This document shows positions 35,287 to 45,084 of a DNA stretch of 64,000 bases, in pieces. Position numbers and translations under genes: made by a program. Below the pieces are notes generated by a model. The model was not told the DNA's origin, ran no database searches, and saw only the letters and a program-made list of their open reading frames with translations. The DNA is taken from the NCBI RefSeq assembly GCF_038443385.1, contig NZ_CP151726.1, positions 6,758,001 to 6,822,000 of the forward strand. Direction: 5' to 3'. How positions within the stretch are numbered: the stretch's first letter is position 1; each line of letters begins with the position of its first letter. This stretch comes from Stieleria varia. Its GTDB lineage: Bacteria > Planctomycetota > Planctomycetia > Pirellulales > Pirellulaceae.

Positions 35287-35440
35287 GTGTTTGAGGACCT
35301 GCAAAAAAGGGAGGTAATGTACGTCATCCGTTTGGGACGTGCGAAAAGTGAATGCCCTGTCTCTTTGCAAAAAACACGCGGAGCGATGATTGCTACGTGG
35401 ATTTCGCGATACTTATTTCCCGCTCGTCCCTTCAGGCAAA

Positions 35441-35468
35441 TTCACTCGCTTGCGCTTCGTGCTGGTAT
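35441..35468 (-). repeat. Half copy of a dispersed palindromic repeat
   Basis: Complement reads ATACCAGCACGAAGCGCAAG then cgagtgaa, identical to the left arm of the hairpin at 26133-26202. Lies in the 277-base gap between the peptidase and the Dop-like gene, which otherwise shows nothing recognisable. Confidence 0.75.
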
Positions 35469-35563
35469 CTGCGGCGGTGTCAGCCGGGGAAGCTGACCAT
35501 AGGGATGATAACAGCAAAGTCGCCATCGAGGGCAGAACCCAGCCGCGCACCTGGTGAAACCTT

Positions 35564-37303
35564 CTATTGGGTTGAATCCTGTATTGGGCGATCAAAGCTG
35601 ACTCGTTTTCGCTCGCTGCCTGAGCCCCACAACGCGTAGCCCCACTCCGATCTGAGCGAATCGCCGGCACCGCCGAATTCGCGGATCACCCATCCACGTC
35701 GCGCGGCGCGTGAGTTCGGCGGCGGATATTTTCGGCGCATTCGGATCTGATCAGGATCGACAAGCTGTAGTTCTGGATTGGTTCTGGCCAGTTTTCGATG
35801 GTAGCCTTGCTCGGACAATTCGTGGTACCGCAAGTCGGTCTTTTTGCGTGCCGCCCAACCCACGTCGGAATCCAGTTGGTCCAGCATCCAAAGCTTCGTG
35901 AGCCAATCGACGCTGCCCAACGCGGATGCGGTGTTGCCGGCATCCTTTCTGAAATCGGCAACGGCATCGAACAAGCGGTTCCAACGCTCGATCACCACGG
36001 GGGCTTCGCCCCTGAGCGCGGAATCGACCGATTCGACGAACGAACGTGCGGCCCGCAAGTAGTTCTTTTGAATGTCCAATGCTGACGACCTGCCGGTACG
36101 CGTCGGCACACGAGTGACGAGATTCCAGTCACTTGCCAAGTCGTGCAATGCCGTGATCGGACGTTTCAGAACAGGCAGATCTTTTGTCGCTCCAGCCTCG
36201 ATCATGTCCAAGACCAGCGACACCGAAGCAAACTTGACGTACTCGGCCAGATCGCAAAGGTTGGAGTCGGAGAGCCCGATCTGCAGTCGCTGCCTCTTGG
36301 CAAACATGCTGCGAGTAGAACTCAGTGACACGATGGACTTGGCACAGAACTGATCCAACCAATGACCAAAAACAAAGATGGGACGTTCACCTCGATAGCT
36401 GCCCATGTCCGCGACCACATCCACCGCGATCGCTTTGGCGCTCAATCGATACCTGCCGTCGTGATCCAAATCCCCTGAACCGCAAAGTGAGACGCGAGAA
36501 ACCAGCAGCGCTGTCAAGTAGCGACGTTGATCGCGAAAAGCGATGTGGCGGCAAACGAACCGGAGCACCACCACGGAGGGAAAGTGGATCAGCCTGAGGC
36601 ACCCGACCGCAATGAGTTGAACCGGACGCGCCAGTGTTTCGAACAATTCTCTCGGATCGGCATCGACCGGAATGTTCACGCCCCGCCGTCGGTGGCCAAA
36701 GTATACCGCGAGATAGAGGCACAGCAAAACGGGCAGTGAAGCGACAAGAATCGCGCACTGCATCAACCACAGCAGGGCCACAAACAGACGATAGATGAGC
36801 AGCATGGACCCGCGAGCAACGACGGCTTCGTAGTTTTCCTGGCAGCCGTACACGTGTCCCAATGCGTCGGAGCTGTTTTTTAAAACTCGCAAATCGATAT
36901 CGAGATCGATGCTGTTTGCCGCGTTCTCGACCAAGTCATCGATGGACCGTTGACAGGCCAGCAATTCCGCCGGACTGGACACCTCCGGCGTAGCGATCTC
37001 GACCAATCCACCGGGTAGCGTGTACATCGACGGATGAGACTCAAACGTCACGGCCCCGCCACTGGCGAGAAACATTTGCTCTCGATCGTAGATTCCATCG
37101 GCGGTGGGTTGATCTCGACGGATCGCATCGCACATCGCTTCATAGACTTGCTTTGCCGAGGGCAATGCATCCCGCGGTACGTCCTGCTGATCCAAGACCA
37201 GCGTCGCATACTCGGTCTCCAATCCGATCAATCGCGAGACCAAACACTGCGTATCACCCTGATCGCGTTGGGGTGCCGCGTCGACAGAATGGTCTGCAGG
37301 CAT
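35564..37303 (-). CDS. Pup-ligase/Dop-like protein with an internal membrane segment
   Basis: 579 residues from the ATG at 37303; the frame is open to 37396. Segments match PafA/Dop carboxylate-amine ligases in order: GLETEYA (residue ~27; the G-x-E-T-E-Y/F nucleotide-binding start), LASGGAVTFESHPSMYTLPG, EIATPEV, then LKNSSDALGHVYGCQENY (Dop: KNNTDGKGxSYGCHENY), LQIGLSDSNLCDLAEYVKFA, SVDWLTKLWMLDQLDSDVGW and DLRYHELSEQGYHRKL. A hydrophobic stretch (about residues 166-203) and a second one (about 230-250) sit directly after the ENY motif, inside the catalytic fold, which is unknown to me for Dop or PafA. In other bacteria these enzymes attach Pup or remove it from proteins. No pup/UBact, proteasome or Mpa gene is in the window. 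It lies 40 bases downstream of the S1 gene, probably one operon. Confidence 0.78.
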   Translation of the reverse strand: MPADHSVDAAPQRDQGDTQCLVSRLIGLETEYATLVLDQQDVPRDALPSAKQVYEAMCDAIRRDQPTADGIYDREQMFLASGGAVTFESHPSMYTLPGGLVEIATPEVSSPAELLACQRSIDDLVENAANSIDLDIDLRVLKNSSDALGHVYGCQENYEAVVARGSMLLIYRLFVALLWLMQCAILVASLPVLLCLYLAVYFGHRRRGVNIPVDADPRELFETLARPVQLIAVGCLRLIHFPSVVVLRFVCRHIAFRDQRRYLTALLVSRVSLCGSGDLDHDGRYRLSAKAIAVDVVADMGSYRGERPIFVFGHWLDQFCAKSIVSLSSTRSMFAKRQRLQIGLSDSNLCDLAEYVKFASVSLVLDMIEAGATKDLPVLKRPITALHDLASDWNLVTRVPTRTGRSSALDIQKNYLRAARSFVESVDSALRGEAPVVIERWNRLFDAVADFRKDAGNTASALGSVDWLTKLWMLDQLDSDVGWAARKKTDLRYHELSEQGYHRKLARTNPELQLVDPDQIRMRRKYPPPNSRAARRGWVIREFGGAGDSLRSEWGYALWGSGSERKRVSFDRPIQDSTQ

Positions 37304-37343
37304 CGGATGGTTTTTGGATGTCGGATGGAGATGCGAACCAACC

Positions 37344-39011
37344 CTACCAACGCAAACCGAATCGTTCGCCGCCGGTGTCGCGGTTGTTTCCGCCACGCAG
37401 GGGGCCGGAGAACGTCGGTTTCACCGCTGGCTCGCGTTGCGGCTCGTCTTCTTCAACCGCATTTTCGGATGCCTCGCTTTCGGGTAACTGTTGAGCGGCT
37501 TTCATGGAAAGGCCGATCTTCTGTGCACCTCTGTCAAACGACAACACCTTGACTTCGACCTCCTGACCTTCGCTGACGAACGAATCGATCCGAGAGACAC
37601 GGTGGTGCGCCAACTCACTGACATGCACCAGACCTTCGACACCGGCACCCAACCGCACAAAGCAGCCGAAGGAAGCGATGCGGCTGACGACGCCTTTGTG
37701 GACCGAACCGATCGCAAACTCTGCTTCGGCTACATCCCAAGGATTCTCCAAGAGGTCGCGATAGGAGAGTCCGATCTTGCCGGTTTCTCGGTCGATGGTA
37801 TCGATCTTGACCTTGACCTTCTGGCCGACCTCAAGCACTTCGCTGGGATGCTTGACGCGATCCCAGCTGAGTTTGCTGACATGGATCAATCCATCGACGC
37901 CGCCCAAGTCGACGAAGGCACCGAAGTCTTTGACCGATCGCACGACGCCTTCCAAGGTATCGCCGGGGTTGATCTGCTCGAGTTGCTCCTTGCGTTTGGT
38001 TTCGCGCTCGCGTTCCAGGATCGCTCGACGACTGAGAACCAAGTTGCCACGTCTCGGGCTGGCTTCGGTGACCAAGCACACAAAACGCTGGTCGACAAAC
38101 TCGCTCAAGTCTTCGACGCGGTACTCGGTGACTTGACTGATCGGCATGAAACCAGGCACGCCACCGACCTTGCATTCCAAACCGCCGGCGTTGTGTCCCG
38201 TCACGATCGCTTCGACGACCGCACCTTCCTCCAAGTCGCCCCAGTCGTTGACGTCGATTGTCTTGCCGGGCAACGACAAAACATACAAACCGTCGGCTCG
38301 GTTGAGTCCTCGAACCAGTACCTCGACGCTTTGACCAGGCGTGGGCTCGGCATCCATGAATTGCTCGAATGGCACGACGCCTTCATCAGGTCCACCGAGC
38401 GAAATGAATACGGAGTCCTGGTGGATCTTGATGACTTGACCGTGAACGCGAGCACCATCGGCGAGTGGTTCTTTGCGGTCAGGCATCCCGGCTTGACCGG
38501 ACAGAAAACCATCCAGGTCGGCCGCTGCCAACTCGGCTTCCAACTCCGCTTCTAAATCAGCGCTCAAACCGGCGCGCAAACTGGGCAGGGCGACTTTGGA
38601 TTTGGTGGGTGCCGCCGCGGGTTTGGCCACCGCATCATCACTCTCACCTTGCAGCCTGGGACGCGGTGGTTTCTTTTTGCTTTTGCCACTTGGCTTTGCC
38701 GCAGCAGCTCCGCTTGCCAGTTGCTCCGTCGAAGCAACCGGTGAGGCGGGCTTGGCGACGCCCAGGCCACGTGCGGCGAGCGGTCCGACGCCACGCGCTG
38801 CCACTGACGCGGGCTTGGCAGCCTGCGCGTCATTGGCCGCTGAGTCATCGGCCGCTGAGTCATTGGGCTCCAGAGTGGGTTCGATTGCACTGGAACCCTC
38901 TTGTGGGGATTCAGCAGCCGCTTGGTCTACCGGCGTTTGAGTCTCGATTGGAGATTCCGAGGCGGGTGCGACGGTTGAGTTCTCAGTCGCAGATTGTTCT
39001 TCATTGCCCAT
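37344..39011 (-). CDS. S1 RNA-binding-domain protein (ribosomal protein S1-like)
   Basis: 555 residues. The first ~180 are Ala-Pro-Glu rich and probably unstructured. Four S1 domains follow: [22 protein letters not shown] (~190), [23 protein letters not shown] (~270), [34 protein letters not shown] (~350) and [34 protein letters not shown] (~440). The last two are the most canonical. The product should bind RNA, on the ribosome or in decay. With four domains and a long acidic N-terminus it differs from the six-domain proteobacterial S1. First gene of a probable operon with the Dop-like protein. Confidence 0.88.
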
Positions 39012-39199
39012 CGGTGTTCAGTGGCGTTCTTGAACGAGTGATTGGAAAGGAGCCAAGCCGGATCAGGCCCCCATCACGAACGCTCGTCCGCTGGGCACCC
39101 TTTTTGGCGTGCATGTCAATTCAGCAGTCTAGCACTCATATCATCCGATCGGTAGTCTTGGCCTTGGTCAGGACTACATCAATTGTTGGAAGAAATACG
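39012..39199. other. Divergent promoter region
   Basis: 188 bases between the diverging S1-domain gene (minus) and the 191-residue hypothetical gene (plus). Both promoters must lie here. I see no clear operator or repeat. Confidence 0.4.
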
Positions 39200-39775
39200 A
39201 TGCCAAGGCTTGCCGACTTTGCCCACTCACTCCTTGACAGGTTCAGCGGCCCTCTGCGAGATGCTGTCATCGATGCCAAAACCCCGTCCTTGGGCGACGG
39301 ACCACGCAACGAGAACTTGATCGGCTGGTTGACCGGTCGGTCGACATTTCCTGAAAAAACGCCTTGGCCATCGGATCCTGGCTCCCTGGGGCTGACACGC
39401 AATGCCCACCAGCCTTTCCTGAGCGGCATGTGGCTCCTGGCCGGAGACATCGACCGAAGCCATACGATCAGCCAAGACATCCCGACTTCCGAAGGCAGCT
39501 TCCTGCACGGAATCATGCACCGCCGAGAAGGCGACTTTGGCAACGCGAAGTATTGGTTCCGCCGAGTCGGCCGCCACAGCGTCTTGGATCAAATCGAAGC
39601 AGAAACCGGGGGCGTCTATCGCGATCCGTTTGACTTCGTCGACGCGTGCAGTGACGCGTCGATGAAGTCGTCTGGTGGTCGAGGTCAATCCGCACCGCAG
39701 AATGACGCCGAACTGATCTCCGCCCAGTGGATCGAGTGGCAGGCGTTGATGAACTACATCACCACGATCGACTAG
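39200..39775 (+). CDS. Conserved hypothetical protein
   Basis: 191 residues from the ATG at 39200, preceded by TTGGAAGAAATACG. The frame is open far upstream through the antisense of the S1 gene, which is not coding. Visible features: a hydrophobic core [22 protein letters not shown] and the segment [28 protein letters not shown], rich in His, Arg and aromatic residues. No signal peptide and no membrane helix, so cytoplasmic. I recognise this only as a protein type common in planctomycetes, without a function. Converges on the giant cadherin gene with a short hairpin between the two stops. Confidence 0.78.
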
Positions 39776-39812: not shown

Positions 39813-42800
39813 CTAGAACAACATCGCGCTGTCCAGGAGCTCCAGCAACGCCGAGTCGTTCGCTTCGTCTTTGTCGTCGATCTGCACATCCGACAACGAC
39901 ACCAACTCTCGTTCGCCGGCGGCACGCCGGAATCGAAGCTCGTTGATCACGCCCAACGCATCCAAAGCGGTGACGATGTTGTTGCCGTTTGTATCGACAA
40001 ATCCGGGGAAGACTGTTTCAACGGAGGGCGACTGGCCGCTGCCATTCCTGCCGATGAAGTTGATGATCTTCAACGCGTCCAACGCAGCGACTTCGCCGTT
40101 GCGGTCGACATCCATCGGGTTGCTTTGGTTGAAATAAGGCGTCGAACCCAGTTGCACTTCGATGGTGAAATCCAAGCGACTGAACAGTTCCAATGGGCCG
40201 AACTCAAAAGCACGCAAAGTCAATGGGTATTGCCCGACGTCGTCCGGTGTCGCCAAGCCGGTCAGCACCGCGACAGGATCGGCACCCGATTCCAGCTCCA
40301 CTTCGGGATCAAACGTCAACCAGCTTGGAACTTTTCCTTGGGCATCAAAGATCGTGACCTGGAACGGATTGCCCTCCGGATCGACGATGAAATCGTTGGG
40401 AATCACATAAGTGAATGTTTCACCACTGGATACCGGATCAAACGAAAGTGTGCCGCCGAACTGAGGAGGCTCATTGACGTCATTAAGCACGATGTTGATC
40501 ACGCGCTCGCTCGTTCCACCGTTTCCGTCACTAGCCATGACATTCAAAGTCATGAACTCCCCTGACTCAAAGTCGAGGGTCACCCCGTCGGCGACAGACA
40601 GAACATGCGTATCGGGATCCAACGTGAACAAAGCAGCCGCGGTTCCGCCAGTGATCGTCGTTGTCACATCATCGTTGACGTCAGGATCGGTCACCAACAA
40701 AGTTTGAACACTTGAACCCGCAGGTGCGTTTTCTGAGATGTTGATCTCGCTCGACAGAATTTGCGGATCGTCATTGGAGTCGGTCAGCTCAACTCGAATC
40801 GATTGAGTGTTCGTTGGCGAGCCACCGGTATTATCGACGACTTCGAAAACAAGGTTCAACGATCGACGCGTTTCGAAATCCAAATTCGCGCCCGGGGCAA
40901 CGCTGAGCGTATTGGTTGCTCCATCGAACTGGAACAAGTCCCCGTCGAGGTCCGGCAACAGCGAGATGCCATAATCGGCCGGCGTGTTCTCAGGGTCGGT
41001 CAGCGAAAACTGAGCCACTTGTGTACCCGCGGCGGTGTTCTCAGGGAACAGAACCGTGGTCGGCGATATCACTGCCGTTTCATTGACATCGAAAAGCGTG
41101 ACGGTGATGTCTGCGGAATCCGCCAGCGGAGGCGTGCCGTTATCGATCACATCAACCGACACAAAATAAGTAGCACGTTGTTCAAAGTCCAACGTGACAC
41201 CATTGGCCGTTCTCAGATTGCCTTGGTTGTCGATTTGAAACAAATTCGCATCGGAGCCACCGGAAATCACGTACCGCAACGTTTGTCCGACGTCCGGGTC
41301 GCTGGCAACCACGCGACCAATGTTCGGCAGGTTTTCACTGACGAACAAACTGGTGGTGGAGATCACCGGGGCATCGTTTTGATTGATCAAGTTGACGCGC
41401 TGAGTGATGGTGGTGGTCAAGGACGGCGAACCGCTATCTGACACTTCCACCTCCAAGTCGACGAACGGCCTGGTCTCAAAATCCAACTGAGCGGAATCGG
41501 CAATCGTCAGCAATCCCGATTGCGGATGGATGCTGAACAAGGGCGGCTGAATCGATGAAATCAGCGTGTATGTCAACGTTTGATTCTGTTGCGTATCCGG
41601 GTCGAACGCTTCGACTTGCCCGACCGCTGTTCCATTCGCTGTTCCTTCCGGGACCGAGAACGGCGACGTCACCACAATCGGTGCTTCATTCACGTCCACC
41701 AACGTCAGTCGCACAGGCACGGCAACTTCCGCGCCCAAATCGTCGGTGAGGATGACTGGTATTTCCAACGTCGGTGTGGCTTCAAAGTCCAACACTCCGA
41801 CCACGGAGACGACACCGGTAACCGGATCAACCGCAAGTGGCGAATTCGGATCGTCGATGCGATAGCTGACCGTGCTGCCGTCCGGGTCGACACCGCTGAT
41901 CGCTCCCAGCTCAAGACCCAGCGGCTGGTTTTCCTCCAACGTCAAGGTAAGCGGAGCACCCTCGGGCAATCGGTTCGGTCCTACGATGTAGTTCTCGTAT
42001 CGCGTCACCGGAACAGCCAGGGTTTGTGCGCCGATCAAGACCATCGGAGGATCATTGATGTCGGCCGGCAACGGGGTCTCGTAGCGGACCGAGTAATTTG
42101 CACGCGGCAGATTCTCGATCTCAAAATTCCCGTTCGCGTCGGTCACCGTACTGGGCTCGCGTTGACGATATTCCAGGCTATCCAGCAGACCGAACGGATA
42201 CCCTGTCACGACATTGCCATTGGCATCGACAAATTGTGACTCCGCAAACGCTTCGATGTAGGCGATCTGATCCGTCTGCGTGGAAACCGTCAAACGCTGG
42301 CGTTGACTATTGATCAGACCAAAAGAAACCGTTGTGGCCAACAGGTTGCCATCGGCATCGAACGCATTCAATCGGATATACGTCGGCAGCGAGGTGAATG
42401 ATCCGCTGATCGCCGTGATTGAAACGGCATTGACCGGTCGATAAAACTCTGCGTGCAGCTTACGGGAATCAGAAAAATCAGTGAGGCCGATATAGGAAAA
42501 GACCCGATTGCTGGTCGCGCTGCCAATGAACGATTCAGCATCCGGTTCGATCTCCAGCCCCAGGAAACCGATCGTGTCATTGGTTGCCGTCAGGGTGACA
42601 CCAGGATACGCATTGGTCAAATCTGCCCCGATGGGAAAACTATCCGGTTCCACACGGTAGATCAAATTGTCCTGCTGGCCGTTGCCGTTGATGTCCAAGT
42701 GGACGGAGACACCCGCGGCTGGTTGTGGCAACTGTTCGGCATCACCGGGCATGGGCTCTCGAATCACGGATCCACGGACGCCACCGACGAAATTGCTGTC

Positions 42801-44684
42801 GCCGAAATGGTCCAGGTTCCGCCCGATGAAAACGGACTGCGTCGGCTCGTTTTGCGAATGGGCCAGTTCGTATGCCAATGGCTGATTAAGGATGGATTCC
42901 TGAGTCAACGAACTCACAATCCAGTCGTCTGGATCACTGCCGACCGAATCTCCGGCGCGAGCTGCATATCCATAACCAGGAGACACGACGAGATTGGCGC
43001 CACTGGGGATGGTCACGGTCGGCGCAGAAAAGTTATCTTCCGCGAAAACGATTTGTCCGTAGGCCACAGTCGATAACGAAGTCGTGGACAGCATCGAGAT
43101 CGAATCGTGCACATTCCAGCCGTCAAAGATTCCGTCCGCCACTCCGTTGTTGTCCGCGTCGATATCGGAACCCACGGTTGGCGCAAAGCTGGCTGTCACC
43201 AAAAAGAATGAGTGCGAGCGAGCACTCTGGTCAATCGAGTCGGTCAAGCCTTGGTAGATCCCGCCCGGTAGACCTGCAAAATCATTTCCCGTCGACCGCA
43301 ACACACTGGCATCAAGATCGATGGAGTAGGGACTATTGGCCGGTGCGATGACCAAGAACCCATTCTGCCCAAACGTCTGTCCGCTCAAGTCGATCACGTT
43401 GGCGATTTCGCCGTTATTGCTCGTCGAATTGTCATGCGTGACGACGAAATAGGTCCCGTCAGGGATCTGGCTGTTGGCGGGTCCCCGCAATTCGATGATC
43501 TGCTCATCTGGCGTATTGAAAAACGCACGGCCGACCAGCAGTTCATTGATAAACATTCCATTGAACGCCGCAGTGCCGAATCGGTCGGCAGTCGACAGCA
43601 CGCCGAAATCCAATCCGGTCAAATCATCGGTCGCTGCCACCGTGACTCGGCGGGCAACGTCCCCCGTGGTGCCGAAGAACAACCCTGTCGCGTCCACCGG
43701 GCTGGACGAGTTGATGAACGCCGATGTCACGCCCGTGTCCGGGTTCACCGTGATGATCGATGTCTTCTGCGGTGAGTCCGCATCAAACATCACGAACGAA
43801 GTGCCGTTGAAGGCCAGAGACATCCCGTTGAGCGATCGATCGGCCGTTGCCAGCATGCTGCCGAAACCGGTCGTTGTGAATGCAAAGAATTGGTCGGTCG
43901 TGTCGTCGAACCCAACGATCCGATTGGCCGACGCGTCATACGCCAAGTCTGAGATGTTGGACAATCCCGTCAGGCCAGCGCCCAACGCGGTCAACGACCC
44001 ATCATTCTGGTCGACTTCGTACAGCGTCCGCAGATCGGTTGAAAGCCCCGCCCTGCCCACTGCAAAGACACGATCCCCGACGCGGTCATAAGCCAAACCG
44101 GCGACCAAATCGTCCTGGTGGGTTGCCAGTACCGTTTGCACGCCGGTATTGGAATCGAGCAAGACGATCTCGTTGGTCTGCGAGTTGACCCCCATCAGCA
44201 CGCCGGCGTTGGTCCGAATGATGCCATCGATCTTGGAACCACTGGCGATACCGATCGGATGCACCACGCCCGATTCCGTCATGCTCAGCAATTGAGTCGC
44301 ATTCGAACCGACAACGTTTGCCGTCCCAAAATAGGCACGAGGGCTTGTTTGCACCGAGTCTCCGCTGACATCGATTCGCACAACGTGAGAGCCCGCCTGC
44401 AAGTTATCCAGGACGTAACGCCCCAAAGTGTCCGTTGTGGTAAACGGCTCCGTGATGTCGGCTTGCGCGTCGTCGTTGACGTCAACATAGACACGAACAT
44501 TCGCCGCAGCAGACTCTTGTGGGTCTCGCACTCCGTTGGCATTGACGTCCGCCCAAACTTCGCCAGCCAACGAAGCGAGCAGTTGCCGACTTTCGAGATG
44601 CTGAAACCGTTGCTGGCGGCGTCGACGGTGCTGCTGTGCCAACTTATCTCGCTTGGAACGCCGGAATGATTTCAACGCTTTCAT
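39813..44684 (-). CDS. Giant exported cadherin-like/dockerin protein
   Basis: 1623 residues from the ATG at 44684 (MKALKSFRRSKRDKLAQQH). The basic N-terminus is followed by FQHLESRQLLASLAGEV, the planctomycetal export signature. Domains in order: SdrD-B-like (GEVWADVNANGVRDPQESA, ~37-110), a beta-propeller-like region (~120-340), a lamin-tail-like domain (~370-480, INELLVGRAFFNTPDEQIIEL), another SdrD-like segment (~660-900), five cadherin-like repeats (~940-1410) each with LDFE and a DxNxxP linker, one PIG/dystroglycan-type domain, and a C-terminal dockerin pair (PMDVDRNGEVAALDALKIIN; VDTNGNNIVTALDALGVIN). The make-up points to a calcium-dependent adhesin or sheath protein at the cell surface. 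The predicted open frame extends 31 codons upstream without protein-like features. Confidence 0.88.
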   Translation of the reverse strand: MKALKSFRRSKRDKLAQQHRRRRQQRFQHLESRQLLASLAGEVWADVNANGVRDPQESAAANVRVYVDVNDDAQADITEPFTTTDTLGRYVLDNLQAGSHVVRIDVSGDSVQTSPRAYFGTANVVGSNATQLLSMTESGVVHPIGIASGSKIDGIIRTNAGVLMGVNSQTNEIVLLDSNTGVQTVLATHQDDLVAGLAYDRVGDRVFAVGRAGLSTDLRTLYEVDQNDGSLTALGAGLTGLSNISDLAYDASANRIVGFDDTTDQFFAFTTTGFGSMLATADRSLNGMSLAFNGTSFVMFDADSPQKTSIITVNPDTGVTSAFINSSSPVDATGLFFGTTGDVARRVTVAATDDLTGLDFGVLSTADRFGTAAFNGMFINELLVGRAFFNTPDEQIIELRGPANSQIPDGTYFVVTHDNSTSNNGEIANVIDLSGQTFGQNGFLVIAPANSPYSIDLDASVLRSTGNDFAGLPGGIYQGLTDSIDQSARSHSFFLVTASFAPTVGSDIDADNNGVADGIFDGWNVHDSISMLSTTSLSTVAYGQIVFAEDNFSAPTVTIPSGANLVVSPGYGYAARAGDSVGSDPDDWIVSSLTQESILNQPLAYELAHSQNEPTQSVFIGRNLDHFGDSNFVGGVRGSVIREPMPGDAEQLPQPAAGVSVHLDINGNGQQDNLIYRVEPDSFPIGADLTNAYPGVTLTATNDTIGFLGLEIEPDAESFIGSATSNRVFSYIGLTDFSDSRKLHAEFYRPVNAVSITAISGSFTSLPTYIRLNAFDADGNLLATTVSFGLINSQRQRLTVSTQTDQIAYIEAFAESQFVDANGNVVTGYPFGLLDSLEYRQREPSTVTDANGNFEIENLPRANYSVRYETPLPADINDPPMVLIGAQTLAVPVTRYENYIVGPNRLPEGAPLTLTLEENQPLGLELGAISGVDPDGSTVSYRIDDPNSPLAVDPVTGVVSVVGVLDFEATPTLEIPVILTDDLGAEVAVPVRLTLVDVNEAPIVVTSPFSVPEGTANGTAVGQVEAFDPDTQQNQTLTYTLISSIQPPLFSIHPQSGLLTIADSAQLDFETRPFVDLEVEVSDSGSPSLTTTITQRVNLINQNDAPVISTTSLFVSENLPNIGRVVASDPDVGQTLRYVISGGSDANLFQIDNQGNLRTANGVTLDFEQRATYFVSVDVIDNGTPPLADSADITVTLFDVNETAVISPTTVLFPENTAAGTQVAQFSLTDPENTPADYGISLLPDLDGDLFQFDGATNTLSVAPGANLDFETRRSLNLVFEVVDNTGGSPTNTQSIRVELTDSNDDPQILSSEINISENAPAGSSVQTLLVTDPDVNDDVTTTITGGTAAALFTLDPDTHVLSVADGVTLDFESGEFMTLNVMASDGNGGTSERVINIVLNDVNEPPQFGGTLSFDPVSSGETFTYVIPNDFIVDPEGNPFQVTIFDAQGKVPSWLTFDPEVELESGADPVAVLTGLATPDDVGQYPLTLRAFEFGPLELFSRLDFTIEVQLGSTPYFNQSNPMDVDRNGEVAALDALKIINFIGRNGSGQSPSVETVFPGFVDTNGNNIVTALDALGVINELRFRRAAGERELVSLSDVQIDDKDEANDSALLELLDSAMLF

Positions 44685-45084
44685 GATTTGCAGACAAAAA
44701 CCGGATGAGAAATCGAAGAATGAAGATAGGAAAAATCGGCGCGTGGAAAGGCTCACAAGCCGGCCCTGCCGCGCCACAAGACTCCAATGCTGAAGTGTTG
44801 GCGGGGATCGGGCGAACCGTGGGCGCGGATTAACGGCCGACCATAGATTAACTCAGCAGGCTATTGGTTCCCTCCCAAACAGACGAAAAACACGCCGAAA
44901 GTTTCATTGAACCGTTTGACAACTCTTGCAACGTAGTCGCCCGGTCACCACAGAGGGCGGGTGCACGCGGCCGATTTTCCGTCCAACCGCTCACAATCAA
45001 AGGTCTCAATCGCCCACTAGACCGGACAGAACAAAATTCCCGCCAACCTCTTGCGGGAACGAAACCCTTTGGACAAAATGCCAC

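Follow-up and report, generated by a model that had tools for sequence, protein, structure and literature searches.

What does an enzyme of the Pup-ligase family do when a long hydrophobic stretch follows one of its core motifs and neither a Pup-like gene nor a proteasome gene lies beside it? In Actinobacteria, experiments have established pupylation as a tag that targets proteins to the proteasome, PafA works with Dop and a proteasome, and UBact is a small modifier ending in Gly-Glu or Gly-Gln outside Actinobacteria. The question is raised by a gene in a 64,000-nucleotide stretch of the Stieleria varia genome, hereafter the window (G000:C1:6758001-6822000); positions are those of the window unless a contig is named. 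The gene lies at 35564-37303 on the minus strand and encodes 579 residues from the ATG at 37303, its frame staying open to an upstream GTG at 37396 that would give 610 residues instead. PF03136 matches the product nearly over the full profile (positions 1-437 of 441) with 236.8 bits (cut-off 25; 6e-70), in line with the initial annotation, which had seen segments typical of PafA and Dop. This is the sole PF03136 match in the 9.72-Mb genome. The PafA equivalog model TIGR03686 gives 119.6 bits (cut-off 551.3) and the Dop equivalog model TIGR03688 gives 105.7 bits (cut-off 492.3), both below cut-off. The window ligase is a member of the Pup-ligase family, yet by these equivalog cut-offs it is neither PafA nor Dop. 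Its nearest relatives come from the planctomycetes Stieleria, Rubripirellula and Rhodopirellula. A total of 104 relatives were found and 80 were kept as named loci; by record titles, largely of metagenome assemblies, the hosts are mostly planctomycetes, with Thermoanaerobaculia, Acidobacteriota, Spirochaetia, a deltaproteobacterium and others also represented. A scan of 35300-39300 for promoters and terminators gave nothing above chance.

No Pup-like or modifier ORF was seen beside the window ligase, as had been noted at the outset. In the related loci, however, a small ORF ending in Gly-Glu lies just upstream of the ligase in 56 of 80, against 0.12 expected from the rate in the remainder of those loci. 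The pattern required was [DEN]-x6-9-[YF]-x7-13-G-E, with the ORF end between -420 and +60 of the matched ligase start. A narrower earlier pattern gave 54/80, the modifiers of L170 and L172 having Glu in place of Asp. The adjacent upstream ORF ends in Gly-Gln at none of the 80 loci, and one further ORF ends in Gly-Arg; all 68 of the 68 modifiers collected with the narrower pattern, which also allowed Gln, end in Glu. Within the window and 19 of the 20 relatives' regions fetched (all but L052), the Gly-Glu ORF stands just upstream in 11/20. Common to the modifiers are an Asp, a Tyr or Phe about 8 residues further on and the Gly-Glu end; only this tail is conserved, and by the start codons chosen most are 50-70 residues long. 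The adjacent arrangement is found in R. europaea (L136) and also in another part of the phylum (G166). At 24 loci there is no modifier next to the ligase; these comprise 20 of the window type (L117-L135 and L137), three that are partial or at a contig end (L139, L140 and L164) and L180, a true miss in which no modifier lies upstream of the ligase.

The modifiers form a small Gly-Glu family of their own, because neither the UBact nor the Pup model matches them. The Pup model PF05639 exceeds its cut-off in 0/60 genomes and matches 0/22 modifiers; the NCBIfam Pup and UBact models likewise match none of these 22, and the UBact model NF033388 finds nothing in the window's own genome. A modifier of the UBact type, which the initial annotation had offered as a candidate, thus finds no support. 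A modifier profile also matched a solved cyclase (0.013), which was judged to be chance. No conserved third gene was accepted at the 80 loci. Separately, PafA/Dop-type genes of L219 (G110:C63) and L216 (G075:C97) stand beside small ORFs ending in LEYVMQKGGE and QQSRQEGGQ, respectively; because of these two loci, Glu- and Gln-ending ORFs can both be said to occur in planctomycetes.

The alternative raised with UBact, that the modifier is encoded elsewhere, is borne out by a candidate in the window's own genome. An ORF of 64 residues from its ATG lies at G000:C1:254094-254288, about 6.5 Mb from the ligase, and ends in YLLRSNTSHDGE. It was matched at G000:C1:254199-254285 by profile A2, built from 11 linked tails with the own copy outside it, at a modest E of 0.02; a profile containing the own copy gives 1.3e-16. 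In the own genome no start codon other than this ATG yields 44 residues or more, and the congeners use other starts; the bases upstream of the start do not settle the choice. The congeners too carry the modifier at places unlinked to the ligase. Profile A3, which included the first congener modifiers, found those of G002, G003, G006, G012, G013 and G026 at 2.6e-5 to 1.1e-18; these six genomes lie outside A3, though some are near-identical to its rows. Thirteen additional genomes with the unlinked arrangement were searched: 12 have a modifier at 2.3e-5 or better, all ending in Gly-Glu, and none is detectable in the thirteenth (G353). A modifier was also found in both linked controls, R. europaea and Roseimaritima. 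Over 34 codons in 11 congeners (L204 and L209 were left out), mean pN is 0.25 and mean pS 0.65, with pN below pS in 55/55 pairs, and both shifted frames reverse the order of the two means. The congener copies are a real gene under protein-level selection.

In a tree of 73 ligases (L164 and L137 were left out), the 20 unlinked ones, which include the window's but not L180, group in a single clade (support 0.98) whose sister is the linked ligase of R. europaea. Because the unlinked ligases form one clade, a single separation event explains the arrangement seen in the window. Around the detached modifier, a protein-kinase-related gene is present in 9/13 genomes (L198-L208; PF00069 in L204), and in 8/13 a protein of 268-336 residues is encoded between the kinase-type gene and the modifier. 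The kinase-type gene is absent from this place in the own genome, and the gene group was not accepted as a functional part.

Ligase and modifier also go together across genomes. Among 60 genomes, the own included, a modifier (E <= 1e-3 in either modifier profile search) is present in 24 of 25 with a ligase and in 0 of 35 without (Fisher p 7e-16), a count that is partly circular because 17 of the 24 supplied rows to a profile. The non-circular part of the pairing test consists of the seven that gave none (G002, G003, G006, G012, G013, G016 and G026) and the 13 further genomes; the match in G016 (1.5e-4) sits at a contig edge. The ligase-positive genome in which no modifier is detectable, G008, is 85% complete and in 1210 contigs, and no modifier was found in G011, a congener without the ligase. 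Two membrane-type ligases are encoded in Roseiconus nitratireducens (G007) and likewise in G019, and each of these genomes also has two modifiers, which differ in tail type. Distances between ligases correlate with those between modifiers (r 0.76 over 65 pairs, reached by 0/2000 permutations; 52 of the 56 linked loci were taken in), a correlation that common descent alone could produce.

Other members of the family are scattered through the phylum, PF03136 matching in 33 of the 294 genomes sampled. Some of the proteins (for example in G060:C234, G079:C147, G120:C91 and G140:C78), in frames of about 655-740 residues, have a match broken between positions ~358-366 and 368-370, and because the match breaks there they appear to carry another insertion near the domain end. 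A further region, L052 (G022:C75, 5907-13183), is a different locus, where a pair of divergent PafA/Dop-like ORFs is accompanied by an AAA ATPase (PF00004, 3e-14) and by a JAB-domain match below threshold (7e-4). A membrane-type ligase-modifier pair is present in its genome as well.

Proteasome parts are scarce in the window's genome. The Mpa/ARC model TIGR03689 finds none there, its best score of 149.6 bits (cut-off 504.75) being that of any AAA protein, in a search whose control rang in all 14 genomes too. There are no separate 20S alpha and beta subunits; the genome has a single PF00227 gene (L030, G000:C1:8646490-8647059; 34.1 bits against a cut-off of 22.4), which has no NCBIfam match and lies directly upstream of a transglutaminase-type gene. 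We take such a setting to be typical of Anbu rather than of the 20S proteasome, and the gene is probably not a 20S subunit. An HslV-type gene would probably have been seen, because the same search finds the proteasome-family gene of E. coli. Being above its Pfam cut-off, this PF00227 gene still weighs against the reading of a system without a proteasome.

The neighbour that the initial annotation had singled out, an S1-domain gene, is indeed adjacent (37344-39011, minus strand; 555 residues with four S1 stretches, 40 nucleotides from the ligase ATG). The proposed conservation of the pair fails in the related loci: an S1 homologue is upstream of the ligase in only 6/80, and beside it in 5/20 regions with the window included. 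A functional linkage was rejected on these counts, and the S1 neighbour is taken as incidental, not as part of the system. Elsewhere in the window, at 39813-44777 on the minus strand, a protein of 1654 residues combines five cadherin stretches with an SdrD_B-like domain and, close to its C-terminus, a dockerin domain.

The reading that we hold to be probable is a membrane-tethered pupylation-type system that works without a proteasome, with a Gly-Glu modifier and a predicted two-helix anchor in the ligase. The fold, the active site and the insertion bear on it in turn. An AlphaFold2 model of the ligase was built from alignment A5, which holds the window sequence and 73 homologues (74 sequences; from the 80 loci, L137, L140, L153, L188, L193 and L196 were dropped by a length and motif filter and L139 at a coordinate step). 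The model has a pLDDT of 93.0 and a pTM of 0.92, and as predicted it adopts the PafA/Dop fold. Its best Foldseek matches are Dop (3e-22) and PafA (3e-20). By VIA-align, of which only the matches to PafA/Dop and to carboxylate-amine ligases were used, it superposes on Dop 4b0r with Z 41.5 at 2.4 A over 416 residues (26% identity) and on PafA 4bjr with Z 35.5 over 420 aligned residues. That the model is nearer to Dop than to PafA, and that Dop is also the best sequence match of the ligase among solved chains, would suit a membrane-anchored hydrolase that mainly removes or processes the modifier as Dop does, while another, so far unrecognised enzyme attaches it. Such an attaching enzyme would need to come from another family, the ligase being alone in its genome as a PF03136 protein, and the Glu at the end of every collected modifier makes deamidation unnecessary, so we regard a dedicated hydrolase as unlikely.

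The active site is nearly complete by alignment and structure prediction, as far as the ATP and Mg sites that the annotation had wanted checked against PafA and Dop are concerned. All of its elements are on the minus strand. The GLETEY segment (residues 27-32, 37208-37225) corresponds to the GhExE motif of core strand 1, a putative Mg/ATP site, with E29 and E31 in 74/74 sequences of A5. The acidic segment EIATPE (residues 102-107, 36983-37000) keeps E102 in 74/74 and E107 in 73/74. QENY (residues 155-158, 36830-36841) is the [HQ]xN motif of core strand 4, with Q in 51, H in 22 and K in 1 at its first position, so that Q or H stands at 155 in 73/74, E in 74 at the second and N in 63 or S in 11 at the third. 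In the strand 5 region (residues 339-346, 36266-36289), Arg339 and Asp346 are each kept in 74/74. The invariant residues of the 74 sequences are E29, E31, E102, D146, E156, R270, R339 and D346, and the ligase has every item of the motif list for the family (GhExE, acidic strands 2/3, [HQ]xN and the strand-5 Arg). This list comes from the available part of PMC2588565, which names GhExE.

Two features of the site differ from those of PafA. Glu88 (37040-37042) occupies, in the profile alignment with PafA, the position of the PafA/Dop catalytic Asp; it is Glu in 73/74 sequences and Asp in one (L174). In PafA we take this Asp to be residue 64. In Dop it is D94, according to the portion of PMC8599861 seen. 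The alpha-loop region RPIFVFGH (residues 307-314, 36362-36385; R in 63, P in 68, G in 62 and H in 54 of 74) usually reads R-P-[IV]-F-x-x-G-H and has a GH pair where PafA and Dop carry Arg-Asp. The two alpha-loop Thr and Arg193, described as important for PafA in the available text of PMC7947786, have no equivalents in the ligase alignment. E29 and E88 are 59 positions apart, and the Dop-loop of about 40 residues lies in the region of Dop that the profile leaves unaligned; the same partial text of PMC7947786 notes that planctomycete homologues align partly. A loss of catalytic residues across the branch, which would have spoken against the original reading, is not what the alignment suggests: with the exceptions of the Asp-to-Glu change and the altered alpha-loop, these residues are conserved. 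We read the site as working but altered, and because the catalytic Asp is Glu and the alpha-loop Thr, Thr and Arg are not kept, the chemistry may differ from that of PafA.

An alpha-loop unlike those of both PafA and Dop, together with a location at the membrane, could also mean that the enzyme joins the modifier Glu to a membrane amine or lipid, or makes a modified peptide, instead of ligating proteins. YbdK-type enzymes and glutamine synthetases belong to the same superfamily, other ligases of which act on small molecules. This is improbable given that PafA and Dop are by far the closest structures (Z 32-42, against 20.9 for YbdK and 13 to 15 for glutamine synthetases) and that the partner is a small protein encoded by a gene, its Gly-Glu tail resembling that of Pup.

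The strongly hydrophobic stretch of about 40 residues and the second one that had been noticed after the ENY motif are confirmed by several approaches. Kyte-Doolittle windows of 19 residues reach >=1.6 at residues 160-180, 181-204 and 228-251, directly after QENY. In the AlphaFold2 model the stretches form two helices that are missing from solved PafA and Dop: residues 166-207 (42 residues; 36683-36808, minus strand) and residues 226-254 (29 residues; 36542-36628, minus strand), the latter leading into a positive flank. A profile of 17 sequences, the window's included, when aligned with solved PafA and Dop skips positions 133-240 (about 108) right after [QH]ENY. The peak 19-residue hydropathy of the region is 1.72 to 3.40, above the highest value elsewhere in the same protein (median 1.11, maximum 1.77) in 73/73 filtered homologues, so the insertion is no chance feature of one sequence. 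The AlphaFold model of the distant homologue L176 has the same two-helix layout, with 52 and 35 residues. Hydropathy counts 1 to 3 stretches per homologue, and both models predict two long helices. The first stretch, about 40 residues in the window and up to 61 in homologues, is long for a single crossing. Few charges fall within the two helices of the window ligase, and the 19 residues after helix 2 hold on average 4.8 Lys/Arg against 0.2 Asp/Glu.

The ligase is, by alignment and model, of the membrane-inserted type, with the hydrophobic insertion directly after core strand 4, and we infer that it is embedded in the membrane. A place for the stretch in the soluble core, named beforehand as grounds for giving up the idea, is not borne out as far as tested, since the helices appear in alignment and model as an insertion relative to PafA and Dop. 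An insertion that forms a soluble stalk, or that packs against the core or against a partner subunit, in an enzyme outside the membrane would fit predicted helices longer than a bilayer needs, but this is quite improbable in view of the hydropathy peaks in every filtered homologue, the scarcity of charges inside the helices, the strongly positive flank and the transmembrane prediction in the accessible part of PMC2588565.

In the membrane-tethered system that we favour, the cytoplasmic glutamine-synthetase-type fold would bind ATP and Mg and phosphorylate the C-terminal Glu of the small modifier, and an isopeptide bond would then be formed between the modifier and lysines of membrane-associated or membrane-embedded proteins. 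With Glu and not Gln as the last residue of the modifier, no deamidation step would be needed, and one enzyme may both attach and remove it. The two-helix hairpin would keep the enzyme on the membrane and so limit its substrates. In the window's clade, the modifier gene has parted from the ligase gene. Because no Mpa was found and the PF00227 gene probably does not encode a 20S subunit, the tag probably has a regulatory role or serves another protease. Ligation, its substrates and its outcome are what we infer from the computed features. A more far-reaching version, which we put forward tentatively and rate below an even chance, is a self-contained two-gene tagging system distinct from Pup-proteasome and from UBact. 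In it, a single membrane-embedded enzyme with Glu in place of the catalytic Asp would attach and remove the Gly-Glu modifier and thereby regulate membrane proteins with no proteasome involved. The membrane-tagging idea becomes directly testable in cultured Stieleria and Rhodopirellula strains through the evidence for pairing and through the location of the modifier, which in the unlinked clade sits where neighbourhood searches would miss it. Whether tagging systems can run in parallel in one cell could be examined in the genomes that have two ligases and two modifiers.

The core observation is already known, because a membrane type of Pup ligase was predicted in 2008. In the part of their paper available (PMC2588565), Iyer, Burroughs and Aravind describe Pup ligases of Rhodopirellula and Plesiocystis in which four transmembrane segments are inserted directly behind core strand 4 and whose genes are unlinked to proteasome genes, and suggest that they might modify membrane proteins. 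The distinct branch that the initial annotation proposed is thus upheld by insertion, fold and a nearly complete active site, as a kind already in print; its statement that known PafA and Dop are soluble overlooks this earlier prediction. PMC2837639 merely cites PMC2588565 in the portion seen. Single-copy planctomycete homologues, 29-31% identical to PafA and Dop, serve as an outgroup in PMC7947786; they are probably the same kind of protein as the window ligase, and the available text of that paper mentions neither a membrane insertion nor a modifier for them. Experimental work on membrane-type ligases was not found among the best literature matches, which covered few subscription papers. What is added here is the evidence for modifier pairing and the location of the likely partner in the clade where it is unlinked.

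Compared with known systems, the window ligase is closest to the type in PMC2588565, as far as the available text describes it. Both have the insertion after core strand 4, a small modifier ending in G[EQ] and no linked proteasome genes. However, four segments were predicted there, whereas AlphaFold models two helices here. Pup was reported there as always adjacent, whereas the modifier is unlinked in the window's clade. A linked membrane-protein gene was reported there as well, which was not recovered as a conserved gene in the 80 loci, where no third gene is common to more than 8/80, the size of the largest neighbour cluster. PafA (4b0t, 4bjr) has the fold and the main active-site residues in common with the window ligase, but it lacks the insertion, has Asp where the ligase has Glu and carries the alpha-loop Thr and Arg that are absent from the ligase. 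Dop (4b0r, 5lrt, 7oxv) is the closest solved fold, but has no membrane insertion.
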